From Arcobacter sp. LA11 (GTDB taxonomy: Bacteria > Campylobacterota > Campylobacteria > Campylobacterales > Arcobacteraceae): a stretch of DNA of 64,000 bases. Within the stretch, counting starts at the first letter, position 1; each line of letters begins with the position of its first letter. The position numbers and the translations under genes are program-made. The stretch spans positions 1-64,000 of the forward strand of contig NZ_BDIR01000005.1 of NCBI RefSeq assembly GCF_001895145.1, written 5' to 3'. Positions 52,382 through 61,388 of this stretch are shown in pieces. The notes beneath the pieces are model-generated. The model saw only the letters and a list, made by a program, of their open reading frames with translations. It made no database searches and was not told the DNA's origin.

Positions 52382-55300
52382 TTAGTTTATACCTCTAGCA
52401 CCAATATTCCCATATCTGTGATAAGAATGAGATACTGATTGTTCTTGGAAATAGTTTAATAATTCCAATCTACCTTCCATCATAGGAGCTTGTCTTACAA
52501 TAAAAGTAGCTGTTTTTGCTGCTTCCTCAAAAACAACTTTTGGAACTTTTTTAATATTCGAATAAATAACTCTATCATAGTTCTTTATAATACTTTTAAA
52601 CTCAGCATCAGTTTGTTCAATCATTTTATCTCGAGGAGTAAATAGTTTTGAAGCATCTTTTAAAAATGATTTCACTAAATTATTTTGTTCAATTGAAACT
52701 TTGAAATGAACTTGAGCAACTCGCGCTGCTAATATTCTTGAAACTGCTTCAAAAAGTGTATCATTATGTGATACTCTAATTAGAACATTTTTTAAAGGTA
52801 AGTATCTAAAGTGATTATCTTCTCCCCTAACCTCACAATAATCTTTCTCTTGTGAAAATTCATTTTCATAATTTTCTAAATAAGATTGCAAAGATAATTC
52901 TAATTTTTCAAAATCTTCTTTACTTTCACTATCTTTATAAGAGGCAATAAGTTGAGTTAAACTATTAGAATATTTCTTTTTAGTTTTTGGAGTAGATACT
53001 TCTTTAAAATCTACAAATTGTGTTATATAATTAAAAATTCCCACTTTACGCCCTGCTCCAATAGCAGATTTACCTAAACCACCAAATGGTTGTCTAAGAA
53101 CAATTGCTCCAGTTGTTCCTCTATTTACATATAGATTTCCAGCTTTTATATTTTTTTTCCAAAAAGTAACTTCTCTTTCATCTAAAGACTCAATACCAGA
53201 AGTTAATCCATATCCTGTAGAGTTTACAATATCAACAGCATGGGCAAGATTACTAGCTCTCATAACAGCAAGTACTGGACCAAATAATTCATTCATATGG
53301 CAGAAACTTCCTTCTTTTACACCCCATTTTATTGCTGGTTTTAACATAAACTTATTATCATCAGAATAAGAAGGTTTTAAAGCCCACTCTTCTCCTGTTT
53401 CAAGAGAATTAATTGCAGTTTCTAAATTACCAGAAACTGGATTTGCTAAAGTTCCAATTCTATTTTTAAAATCCCAAACAGAACCCACACTCATTGAATT
53501 TGCAGTATCAATTAATGCTTTTCTAAAATCTTTGTCTTCATATACTTCATCTTCAAGTATAAGTAATGAAGTAGCAGAACATTTTTGACCTGAATTAGAA
53601 AAGGCACTTTGACATACATTTTTAACAGCTTGTTCTCTATCTGCCATATTTGTGACAATAGTAGCATCCTTTCCTCCAGTCTCTGCTGTTAAGAATAAAT
53701 CAGGTCTTGTTTCTAACATTTTATAAGCAGTGTCTTCACCACCAGTTAAAATTACAAAGTCAACTGCTTTATTTGGAATCAAATGTTCACCAGCTAAAGC
53801 TCCTGGGCAAGGTAAGAATTGAAGTGTATTCTTCGAAACTCCTGCATCCCAGAAACATTTACACATTTCATATGCAGTTAAAGCTGCAACTGATGCAGGT
53901 TTTATAATAACAGTATTTCCAGCGGCAAGTGTGGCTGCAATACCACCTAAAGGAATAGCTACAGGGAAATTCCAAGGAGGAACAACCACACCAACACCTT
54001 TTCCACTAAACTCTAAATTCTCATATTTATCAAAGTATTCTGCAGAATATGGATAAAATTCAATAAAATCAACTGATTCTGATACTTCAACATCAGTTTC
54101 AGTAAATACTTTACCAACTTCTGCTGCTGCTATACCAATTAAATCATCTCTTCTTTCACGTACTTTTATCGCTGCTTCTTTTAATATTTCATGTCTTTGT
54201 TTATGAGTTTTACTTCTCCATCCATCAACATCTGCACTTGCTATTTCAACAGATTTTTTAATATCTTCAGCATTTGCAATAGCAAATTTTCCAGCTAATA
54301 CACCCTCTTGAACTTGTGATTTGTCTATTGCTTCAATAATCTCTCTGTCATTAGTTATATCTTCACCACCAACTACAATTGGAGCTATTTTATGTTCTGT
54401 ATTTTTATCAAACTTCCATTTTTTAACTATATCTCTAGCCCATTCATGATTTTTAGGTAATATAAAATCTGTATCAGCTTCTGCTTCATAAACACCTGTA
54501 TCATATGCAGACTTTTTAAAATCATTCCATTTTTCTTCTAATCTATTTTGAGTTCTTTTCGCACCAACAAAAGAAGTTTTTTCTGCTTCAAAAGATTTAA
54601 TAAATAGATCTTTTTGCATATTCCAATTTTCTGAACCAACTGTTAAACCAAAAGAGTATCTAATAAAGTTATTTGGACCAGTATTTTCATCTAACCTTCT
54701 AACTAAGTAAGCAATAGCATTTGTAAATTGCTCTTTTGCAGCTGTTGGAGCATAAAGAATAACTTCTTTAGAAATCTCTTTTATTGCTAACCTTGCAGCT
54801 TCACTCATACCTTCTAACATCTCTAAAGTATGATATTTTGATACATCATTATCTTCAGCTAATTGTGTTGCATATGCTAATTCAAATAGATTATGAGATG
54901 CAGTTCCTAAATGTAAAAAAGGAGCATTTTGGGGTTGAAGTGCAAATCTTGCCATTCTTTTATAATTTGAATCTGTATCTAATTTTTCAGTATAAGTAAC
55001 CATTTCCCAATGTTTTTGAGATGCTTCAGTCTCTTCCATCTCCATATTAGCACCTTTTACAAGTCTAACTTTAATAGGTGCTCCACCATTTTCTACTCTA
55101 TTTTTTACCCAAGAAGTTAAATCTTTTTGAACATTAAACGAATCAGGTAGATATGCTTGAAGTACTATACCAGCATAGAAATTTTTAAATTCTTCTTTTT
55201 CTAAAGTCTTTTTAAATACTGCAACAGTAATATCTAAATCTCTATACTCTTCCATATCAAGATTGATAAATTTATTTGATTTTGTACCATCTGGTGCAAT

Positions 55301-55948
55301 ATAAGGATGTTCTTGCGCTTGTTTATAAATTCTTGTTAATTTATCTACAAGAACTTCAACAGTATGATCAAAATCTAATGCATTGATTTGAGAGTAAATT
55401 GTTGAAATTTTAATCGAAATATAGTCAATATTTGGGTTAGATAATGCTTTTAAATATTTTTGAACTCTCTCTTGAGCTTCTTCTTCACCAAGAACCACTT
55501 CACCAATTAGATTGATATTTACTCTTGTTCCTTCTGATTTTCTTTGAACTAAATGTGCATTAAAAGGCTTTTCTTCACCTTTTATTACAACTGTTCTAGT
55601 ATCTTCTCTAATTTGATTTACAAACATTGGAACTGAAAGGTTCGGTAAATACTTACCAAAGTTTTGGAATAACCATAATAGTGTTTTATCTTTTGTTGTA
55701 AAAAAGTGTGCCATTCCATGTTTTTCAAGTAAAAATATAATCTGATTAGCAATTCTATCGTTTGATTGGGCTCTAAAACACTGATCCATTAGTTCTATTA
55801 AAAGTGCTTTATCTTTTGGATGGTCTAGCATCTTATTCATTTTTACATAGAATTCTCTATCAAAGTCACTTACAAGCTCTGTAGCTCTATTTTGCCATTT
55901 TTGGGCAAGGTTTATGGCAGAATTTATAAGTTCTTGCTCATTTGTCAT
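52382..55948 (-). CDS. putA: PutA, bifunctional proline dehydrogenase / glutamate semialdehyde dehydrogenase
   Basis: This 1188-residue protein has an N-terminal FAD-dependent proline dehydrogenase barrel ('RLVKGANMEMEETEASQKHW', 'FLHLGTASHNLFELAYA') and an aldehyde dehydrogenase domain with catalytic Cys in 'NSGQKCSAT' and Glu in 'LTAETGGKD'. A C-terminal region of about 180 residues follows. It oxidises proline to glutamate in two steps with channelled intermediate. No N-terminal ribbon-helix-helix is present, so it is not an autorepressor. The ATG is preceded by AAGGATAACAG and, about 40 bases further, by a three-way-junction-like RNA element. The livF gene lies upstream on the same strand. 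Confidence 0.96.
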   Translation of the reverse strand: MTNEQELINSAINLAQKWQNRATELVSDFDREFYVKMNKMLDHPKDKALLIELMDQCFRAQSNDRIANQIIFLLEKHGMAHFFTTKDKTLLWLFQNFGKYLPNLSVPMFVNQIREDTRTVVIKGEEKPFNAHLVQRKSEGTRVNINLIGEVVLGEEEAQERVQKYLKALSNPNIDYISIKISTIYSQINALDFDHTVEVLVDKLTRIYKQAQEHPYIAPDGTKSNKFINLDMEEYRDLDITVAVFKKTLEKEEFKNFYAGIVLQAYLPDSFNVQKDLTSWVKNRVENGGAPIKVRLVKGANMEMEETEASQKHWEMVTYTEKLDTDSNYKRMARFALQPQNAPFLHLGTASHNLFELAYATQLAEDNDVSKYHTLEMLEGMSEAARLAIKEISKEVILYAPTAAKEQFTNAIAYLVRRLDENTGPNNFIRYSFGLTVGSENWNMQKDLFIKSFEAEKTSFVGAKRTQNRLEEKWNDFKKSAYDTGVYEAEADTDFILPKNHEWARDIVKKWKFDKNTEHKIAPIVVGGEDITNDREIIEAIDKSQVQEGVLAGKFAIANAEDIKKSVEIASADVDGWRSKTHKQRHEILKEAAIKVRERRDDLIGIAAAEVGKVFTETDVEVSESVDFIEFYPYSAEYFDKYENLEFSGKGVGVVVPPWNFPVAIPLGGIAATLAAGNTVIIKPASVAALTAYEMCKCFWDAGVSKNTLQFLPCPGALAGEHLIPNKAVDFVILTGGEDTAYKMLETRPDLFLTAETGGKDATIVTNMADREQAVKNVCQSAFSNSGQKCSATSLLILEDEVYEDKDFRKALIDTANSMSVGSVWDFKNRIGTLANPVSGNLETAINSLETGEEWALKPSYSDDNKFMLKPAIKWGVKEGSFCHMNELFGPVLAVMRASNLAHAVDIVNSTGYGLTSGIESLDEREVTFWKKNIKAGNLYVNRGTTGAIVLRQPFGGLGKSAIGAGRKVGIFNYITQFVDFKEVSTPKTKKKYSNSLTQLIASYKDSESKEDFEKLELSLQSYLENYENEFSQEKDYCEVRGEDNHFRYLPLKNVLIRVSHNDTLFEAVSRILAARVAQVHFKVSIEQNNLVKSFLKDASKLFTPRDKMIEQTDAEFKSIIKNYDRVIYSNIKKVPKVVFEEAAKTATFIVRQAPMMEGRLELLNYFQEQSVSHSYHRYGNIGARGIN

Positions 55949-55989
55949 CTGTTATCCTTCATTTTTATTCGTTTTTAAATAAATTTCAT

Positions 55990-56060
55990 GTAGCTTAACA
56001 GTCAGGCTTCAATTGTCTGTCTTGAGGGGAGCAACCGCCAAGTATGCCCCTCATTGCTAC
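55990..56060 (-). promoter_or_regulatory. Structured leader or sRNA between livF and putA, three-way-junction candidate
   Basis: The 146-bp gap holds a compact block with unusual G and C content for this genome. On the minus strand GTAGC (56060-56056) pairs with GCTAC (55994-55990). The enclosed part forms GAGGGG/CCCCTC (56052-56047 with 56029-56024) and a second arm, ACAGACA with TGACTGT (56020-56014 with 56004-55998). Both arms spring from the GTAGC stem, a three-way junction. It could be a cis-regulatory leader of putA, a terminator of the liv operon, or a small RNA on either strand. It matches no riboswitch class I know. Confidence 0.5.
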
Positions 56061-56094
56061 TAAATTTTTCTTCAACTTTTTTTATATTTTTTAT

Positions 56095-56817
56095 TTAGTG
56101 TTTTTTTCCTAAATAAGCTTCTTGAATCTTCTTAGAATTTAGAAGTTCTTCAGCTGTTCCTTCATGGGTAATTTTACCTACTTCTAAAACATACGCACGA
56201 TCGGCTAATTTCAGAGCTGCTTTTGCATTTTGCTCAACTAAAAGTACTGTTACTCCACTTTGTGCAATCTCTTTTACAGCCTTAAAAATTGCTTTTATCA
56301 AAATTGGAGCAAGTCCTAAACTTGGTTCATCTAGAATTAAAAGTTTTGGTTTTGACATGATTGCACGACCAATTGCCAGCATTTGTTGTTCACCACCAGA
56401 AAGTGTTCCAGCAAATTGTTTTCGCCTTTCTTTAAGTCTTGGTAAAATGTCATAAATCCATTCTAAAGTCTCTTTATCATGATCTTTAAGTGTATAAGCA
56501 CCCATCATTAGATTTTCTTCTACAGTAAGTGTTCCAAATACTCTTCTTCCTTCAGGAGAATGAGACATACCAAGAGCAACAATATCATGTGCTTCACACT
56601 TTGTAATATCATTTTTATCAAAAACAATATGTCCAGCTTTAGCTTTTAAAAGACCAGATATGGTCTGTAAAGTTGTAGTTTTCCCAGCACCATTAGCTCC
56701 AAGAATTGTTACTACTTCACCACGTCTTACATGAATATTGATTCCTTTAATAGCAGCGATAGCTCCATAACTTACTTCTAAATCTTTTACATCAAGTAAT
56801 ATTTCGTTATTTACCAT
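56095..56817 (-). CDS. livF: Branched-chain amino-acid ABC transporter ATPase LivF
   Basis: The 240-residue ATPase has Walker A 'GANGAGKTT', signature 'LSGGEQQ', Walker B 'LLILDEPS' and the LivF-like 'GMSHSPEGRRVF'. It powers uptake with LivG, LivM, LivH and LivK. It is the last gene of the operon, two bases after livG. Substrates of such systems are usually leucine, isoleucine, valine, but some transport proline or other amino acids; the neighbouring putA makes proline possible here. Confidence 0.92.
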   Translation of the reverse strand: MVNNEILLDVKDLEVSYGAIAAIKGINIHVRRGEVVTILGANGAGKTTTLQTISGLLKAKAGHIVFDKNDITKCEAHDIVALGMSHSPEGRRVFGTLTVEENLMMGAYTLKDHDKETLEWIYDILPRLKERRKQFAGTLSGGEQQMLAIGRAIMSKPKLLILDEPSLGLAPILIKAIFKAVKEIAQSGVTVLLVEQNAKAALKLADRAYVLEVGKITHEGTAEELLNSKKIQEAYLGKKH

Positions 56818-60728: not shown

Positions 60729-61388
60729 TTAAAAAGTAGGTTCTATAATATAGCAACCTACGCACCATTCGCCGATGTTATCAATTATATTTATCTCTCC
60801 CCCTTTAAAATTAGATTTCAAGTTCTTATGACTTGATACGATTTTATCAAACGACTCAATTATTTCATCAAGTCTTTTTTGTGTTTTCTTTCTTGCACTA
60901 TTAGAAATATCAAGATAAAAAGCAAATACTCCATAATCAAGAGTAGAATCTTCTTGTCTTTCCCTTTCTAACATTTTACACATTTTTTCTACTTCACTCT
61001 TATACTCTTCTTGAACATTTCTAACACCATTTTTTATACTCATTATAACTCTTGAAATAGAATCATTATCAGTTTTATGTTCGAATCTTTCATCTAAAGT
61101 CAAACACATAACATCTTGTGTTAAATACTTTTCTTTCATAAAGTCTCTAAATCCTGCCCTATTAGGTAAAGAACATCTTAATATATCTGCAACAGTAGCA
61201 TCAATAAAAATCTCTGGAGAGTTAGAAAGTTTTGCTATTTCTTGAGAAACATGGATTGTAAGAAACTTAGCAGGAGCATAAGAAAGATAAAGTTCATCTG
61301 CTGTCCAATGGGAATAATTAGCTTTTGCAGTTCTTATTCCTCTAGTTACAGCATCTATGATTTCTTCTTGATTTGGAAACTTGTGCAT
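60729..61388 (-). CDS. Unknown protein partnered with a ribbon-helix-helix protein
   Basis: The 219-residue cytosolic-looking protein has 'NYSHWTADELYLSYAPAKFL' near the start, 'CSLPNRAGFRDFMKEKYL' in the middle, a charged helical stretch ('EKMCKMLERERQEDS') and the end 'IGEWCVGCYIIEPTF'. I recognise no family. Only three bases separate it from the upstream ribbon-helix-helix gene, which has its own tandem operator, so the pair looks like an autoregulated two-gene module. A toxin, a nuclease-like or a sensory role is possible; none is demonstrated by motifs. A hairpin follows the gene. Confidence 0.6.
   Translation of the reverse strand: MHKFPNQEEIIDAVTRGIRTAKANYSHWTADELYLSYAPAKFLTIHVSQEIAKLSNSPEIFIDATVADILRCSLPNRAGFRDFMKEKYLTQDVMCLTLDERFEHKTDNDSISRVIMSIKNGVRNVQEEYKSEVEKMCKMLERERQEDSTLDYGVFAFYLDISNSARKKTQKRLDEIIESFDKIVSSHKNLKSNFKGGEINIIDNIGEWCVGCYIIEPTF

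Follow-up and report, generated by a model that had tools for sequence, protein, structure and literature searches.

What is the G+C-rich block that separates an amino-acid transporter operon from the proline-degradation gene putA in Arcobacter sp. LA11? In the window, i.e. the whole 64,000-nt stretch that was analysed, putA (52382-55948, minus strand, with its ATG start codon at 55948) encodes a protein with proline dehydrogenase and aldehyde (L-glutamate gamma-semialdehyde) dehydrogenase domains (PF01619, E = 2.8e-62; PF00171, E = 1.9e-97); no further Pfam domain was detected at E = 0.001, and PutA has no recognisable DNA-binding domain. The gene upstream, livF (56095-56817, minus strand), is the last of the transporter operon, its best match being NF008626 (LivF) with an E-value of 4.8e-84, below the model's own cut-off. 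The block lies in the 146-nt gap between the two.

A sequence-only reading of this gap had described a G/C-rich block that stands out from its surroundings, and indeed G+C content in 40-base windows is 55% compared with 12-30% in the flanks. That reading gave no strand. Since both livF and putA are on the minus strand, the relevant RNA is the minus-strand transcript. When folded alone, the minus strand yielded z = -1.71 (12 of 200 shuffles were equally good) and the plus strand z = -2.62 (1 of 200). The single-sequence fold is only modestly above chance and insufficient by itself.

Architecture of the three-way junction

BLAST against 100 related genomes yielded about a dozen homologues, all inspected ones lying between livF and putA, and from the BLAST homologues we built covariance models (R1, then R2 and R3). 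The covariance-model match delimits the element at 55985-56064 (minus strand); the window copy scores 71 bits with R2 and 75 bits with R3, with E-values of 4.8e-14 and 4.6e-13 on the whole-genome scale. The element is compact (about 75 nt), and its stems are those initially proposed. Read on the forward strand, they are GTAGC (55990-55994) with GCTAC (56056-56060), the GAGGGG/CCCCTC arm (56024-56029 and 56047-56052) and a seven-position arm with one mismatch, ACAGTCA (55998-56004) with TGTCTGT (56014-56020).

On the minus strand, stem P1 pairs GTAGC (56056-56060) with GCTAC (55990-55994), measures 5-7 bp across homologues and encloses P2 and P3; the last C of its 3′ strand and the next bases are shared with a hairpin of the downstream tail, P4. 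P2 pairs GAGGGG (56047-56052) with CCCCTC (56024-56029) and is capped by a loop, ACUUGGCGGU, that is near-invariant across homologues; the most conserved stretch, ACTTGGCGGT (56034-56043), is kept in nearly all of them. P3 pairs ACAGACA (56014-56020) with TGACTGT (55998-56004) around the loop ATTGAAGCC (56005-56013), of which AAGC is retained in most, not all, homologues. The sequence of P3 varies freely, but the CA/UG following the internal mismatch stays, and the joining residues, AA between P1 and P2 and UAA between P3 and P1, are largely kept. Two further ideas about the loops were rejected. A kissing interaction that would pair GGC of the P2 loop with GC of the P3 loop is contradicted by two loci, L059 and L065, in which GGC has become GCC without a matching change in the P3 loop, and a mutual-information scan of the alignment revealed no such pair. 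Mimicry of the anticodon loop of tRNA-Pro would need CUUGG, but the same two loci carry CUUGC.

Covariation among homologues

Covariation among relatives had been set beforehand as the test of the proposed structure. In alignments fitted to the model structure, so that the pair counts lean towards it, 28 copies showed two-sided changes in 12 of 19 pairs with 95.6% of cells paired, and 33 copies (31 distinct), including those preceding ornithine cyclodeaminase genes (ocd; see below), showed two-sided changes in 14 of 19 pairs. None of 500 shuffles reached any of five pairing measures for the 28-copy alignment, nor did any of 500 match the larger one; in slid controls on the 28 copies at most 47% of cells were paired. 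Compensatory changes are also visible in the raw sequences of all three stems. In P1, GTAGC/GCTAC becomes GTAAC/GTTAC in one genome (G052), and T-A/T-G changes occur at the last pair. P2 appears elsewhere as GAGGGA/TCCCTC, GAGGGC/GCCCTC or AAGGGG/CCCCTT in place of GAGGGG/CCCCTC, and P3 as ACAG/CTGT, GAGC/GCTC or AAGC/GCTT. Moreover, when the column pairs of the alignment are ranked by mutual information, the outer four pairs of P3 take the first four positions. RNAalifold, run on a plain MAFFT alignment, recovered P1, with P2 and P3 misaligned. Pair cells read on the minus strand comprise 13 G-U against 6 A-C combinations, an excess that may be taken as a weak sign that the minus strand is the RNA. 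We consider it close to certain that the three-way junction is a conserved RNA structure on the minus strand.

Distribution and linkage to putA

A putA-like match (E = 1e-10) is present in 49 of 104 Arcobacteraceae genomes, 28 of which, representing 28 species and seven genera (g1, g3, g6, g10, g11, g12 and g13), carry a strong copy of the element (R2 E-value of 6e-9 or better). Five decayed copies were also recognised (G045, G029, G055, G001 and G013). All 28 strong and all five decayed copies are located immediately upstream of putA. livF directly precedes 27 of the 28 strong copies; in the exception, G142, a different ABC ATPase lies upstream and the element still stands before putA, which indicates that its association is with putA and not with liv. 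Taken together, an action in cis on putA is very probable. In G133, the livF stop (1386) and the element (from 1391) are separated by only 4 nt. No promoter could fit between them, and the element therefore most likely resides within a liv-putA transcript.

In four of the decayed copies (G029, G055, G001 and G045; loci L037, L038, L041 and L042), P2 is lost or altered and remnants of P1 and P3 are recognisable; these leaders are still situated between livF and putA and represent natural cases of element loss. In G056 and G046 (L068 and L069), the place of the element in the livF-putA gap is taken by a terminator-like hairpin followed by a T-run. The element is absent from five genomes of the window's genus in which putA is 1.1-2.2 kb away from livF, and a different conserved, A+T-rich leader is found there instead. 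Such a leader is shared by the liv-distant putA genes of L045, L049, L051, L052, L060, L066 and L070 and ends in two GTANTAC palindromes separated by 5 nt; it might represent either an operator accompanied by its own promoter or another structured leader.

In 399 order-wide and 397 phylum-wide genomes (overlapping samples), no convincing copy turned up beyond Arcobacteraceae. A pattern scan of 84,980 species genomes, with the model then applied, likewise revealed no convincing member elsewhere: the pattern matches outside this family had no model match. Of the candidates from other families, that in G185 has no loop and that in G221 falls inside an ORF. Weak model matches in eight genomes (G104, G057, G011, G101, G105, G118, G108 and G123) were coding or terminator-like, loop-less or stem-less, and a second weak match in the window's own genome (G000:C9) was rejected for the same classes of fault. 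The G104 hairpin (L100:1354-1437, plus strand) precedes a replication-type gene and keeps the loop, with an exact 10-base match (TTTACTTGGCGGTTA); given its phage-like island and poor P1, we regard this match as probably due to chance.

A second copy upstream of an ornithine-to-proline operon

Two species, G020 and G058, have a second copy of the element further down the same gene cluster. These copies were scored by R2 before their inclusion in any model, with E-values of 0.016 and 0.014 per genome. In G020 the second copy precedes genes for CtlX (NF046062), ornithine cyclodeaminase (NF005762) and arginase (best match TIGR01229), and in G058 a ctlX remnant followed by ocd and arginase; after arginase both operons encode a transporter-like membrane protein. 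By their established functions, CtlX, arginase and ornithine cyclodeaminase together lead from citrulline and arginine through ornithine to proline. The ctlX gene of G058 has apparently been cut to a short remnant (L098:4190-4260, minus strand) between the second RNA copy and ocd. P2 of the second copies is an 11-position stem of unrelated sequence (AAGGGAAAGGA/TCCTTTCCCTT in G058); despite this difference, the loop TACTTGGCGGT is retained, as is the tail including its Shine-Dalgarno site. In G020 this site serves a short frame, open for at least 44 codons, and the frame in G058 is unlike it. A further 12 ornithine cyclodeaminase loci have no copy, so that only those of G020 and G058 possess one.

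The tail and the ribosome-binding site of putA

Across homologues the element sits 36-38 nt before putA, the length of the tail being nearly constant. In the window this A+T-rich tail (55955-55989, minus strand) ends with the Shine-Dalgarno sequence AAGGA of putA (55955-55959, minus strand), 6 nt before the ATG. In most homologues CUUAAAAUU, directly after P1, can pair with AAUUUUAAG, which includes the first Shine-Dalgarno bases, so that the resulting hairpin P4 covers the AAG of AAGGA. The outer cells of P4 are 89% paired in register and at most 71% out of register; a share of this pairing is expected from A+T richness alone. The stability of P4 is low (about -1 to -4 kcal/mol), and the hairpin is partly eroded in the window copy, with 4 of 9 outer positions paired and only the inner UUUAUU/AAUAAA (55978-55983 with 55964-55969) well kept. 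P1 ends on its 3′ side with CUU, the bases that pair with AAG in P4, so that P1 and P4 compete. The overlap of P1 and P4 on CUU, together with the Shine-Dalgarno AAG, is a plausible candidate for an expression platform acting as a translational switch.

Functional interpretation

What, then, does the element do? The covariation, the association with putA, the second copy before a proline-making operon, and the register of P4 with its shared CUU all point to an orphan, riboswitch-like leader that senses a metabolite and acts in cis within the liv-putA operon to tune proline-catabolic translation, a reading to which we assign a probability of about 0.6. The steps from structure to sensing, including a small molecule rather than a protein as the partner, are ones that we infer. 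The RNA class is apparently new and restricted to a single bacterial family; it probably represents a novel RNA switch of proline metabolism.

Under this reading, the junction would recognise a metabolite of the proline route, with L-proline as the first guess and P5C, glutamate or ornithine as alternatives. Ligand binding would stabilise P1; without ligand, the 3′ end of P1 (CUU) would pair with the Shine-Dalgarno AAG in P4. The ligand would thus make the ribosome-binding site accessible and increase PutA synthesis, and the co-transcribed upstream transporter genes would be unaffected by the switch. The narrower proposal, in which the class recognises L-proline or one of its direct neighbours (P5C, ornithine) and as a riboswitch turns on proline-catabolic translation inside a transporter operon, is tentative. 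The direction of control would be the same for putA, which breaks proline down, and for ocd, which makes it, and this does not single out proline as the ligand. The narrow gene association, with proline degradation and an ornithine-to-proline operon, allows the question of the ligand to be addressed directly with a small set of compounds. An aptamer that responds to proline, if real, would add one more amino acid to the known riboswitch ligands, and the switch would explain how Arcobacteraceae, with a PutA that has no recognisable DNA-binding domain, regulate proline use.

Alternatively, the loop of P2 might be the site through which an RNA-binding protein, be it a regulator or an enzyme that regulates its own synthesis, controls translation or mRNA stability of putA and ocd. 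As in many protein-binding leaders, a single hairpin loop holds most of the invariant sequence and P3 varies freely; the ocd copies retain mainly loop and tail in sequence; and the leaders of G029, G055, G045 and G001 have lost or altered P2 while keeping remnants of P1 and P3. However, a protein that simply binds the loop would have no need of the three-way junction, yet this persists along with its joining AA and UAA, and no candidate protein was found; we judge this explanation rather unlikely. Improbable, in our view, is a role in mRNA processing or stability, in which the element between liv and putA would set separate levels for the two parts of the transcript and sense nothing. The intercistronic position, with a spacing from livF that can be as short as 4 nt, and the terminator-like hairpin occupying the same place in G046 and G056 would suit such a role, but the near-invariant loop, the recurrence before ocd away from liv and the presence in G142 without liv argue against it.

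Intrinsic termination of liv transcription, or transcription attenuation, is suggested by G+C-rich hairpins between operons but very hard to reconcile with the sequence following GCUAC on the minus strand (AUGAAAUUUAUU), which has no U-run; a scan for terminators likewise found no terminator-like site at the element, which speaks against the plain liv terminator that the sequence-only reading had itself named as its alternative. Equally remote is control by a leader peptide: an ATG stands just before P2 in the window (opening a 19-codon frame) and in a few relatives, but most homologues (e.g. L033-L035, L044 and L056-L059) have no start codon there, and hence there is no conserved upstream frame.

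Relationship to known RNA families

The riboswitch-like reading agrees with the initial impression of an aptamer-like topology matching no known class: in addition to the covariation described above, neither the window copy nor the homologue set has a match in Rfam 15 at gathering or relaxed thresholds. Lysine, glycine and glutamine riboswitches are likewise short structured leaders, with conserved joining and loop residues, before genes for the use or transport of one amino acid, and a Shine-Dalgarno switch of the same kind is plausible here. The Arcobacteraceae element differs from them in having no Rfam match, in preceding different genes and in having a candidate ligand only. In the papers that we searched, no proline-binding riboswitch was found, the sole match being a T-box. 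T-box leaders of proline genes (proBA and proI of Bacillus; PMC13198045) also exert RNA control of proline metabolism. T-boxes read tRNA-Pro and control biosynthesis by termination. The data do not support a T-box at the putA leader, with no T-box match in Rfam and no terminator at the element.

Judging from their main-text passages, the orphan riboswitch candidates obtained from scans of GC-rich intergenic regions (PMC6429828, PMC8632094, PMC11109978) are objects of the same kind, and those passages name no motif of putA or proline catabolism. The main-text passages of the 2019 study (PMC6429828) include Arcobacter sp. L among the genomes scanned and leave most Arcobacter-confined intergenic regions unnamed; the putA leader could be one of these. 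Arcobacter is not mentioned in the corresponding passages of the 26- and 50-genome surveys (PMC8632094, PMC11109978).

Other features of the window

The window also contains a purD RNA (RF01069; 21860-21972, minus strand, 50.2 bits), a described cis-regulatory motif that differs from the putA leader in sequence and position and has no match there. Upstream of the liv operon, 60729-61388 (minus strand) encodes a protein of 219 aa for which neither Pfam nor NCBIfam gave a significant match. Its relatives adjoin putA or the second RNA copy in three loci (L045, L097 and L098), and the protein may therefore be linked to the use of proline or other amino acids.
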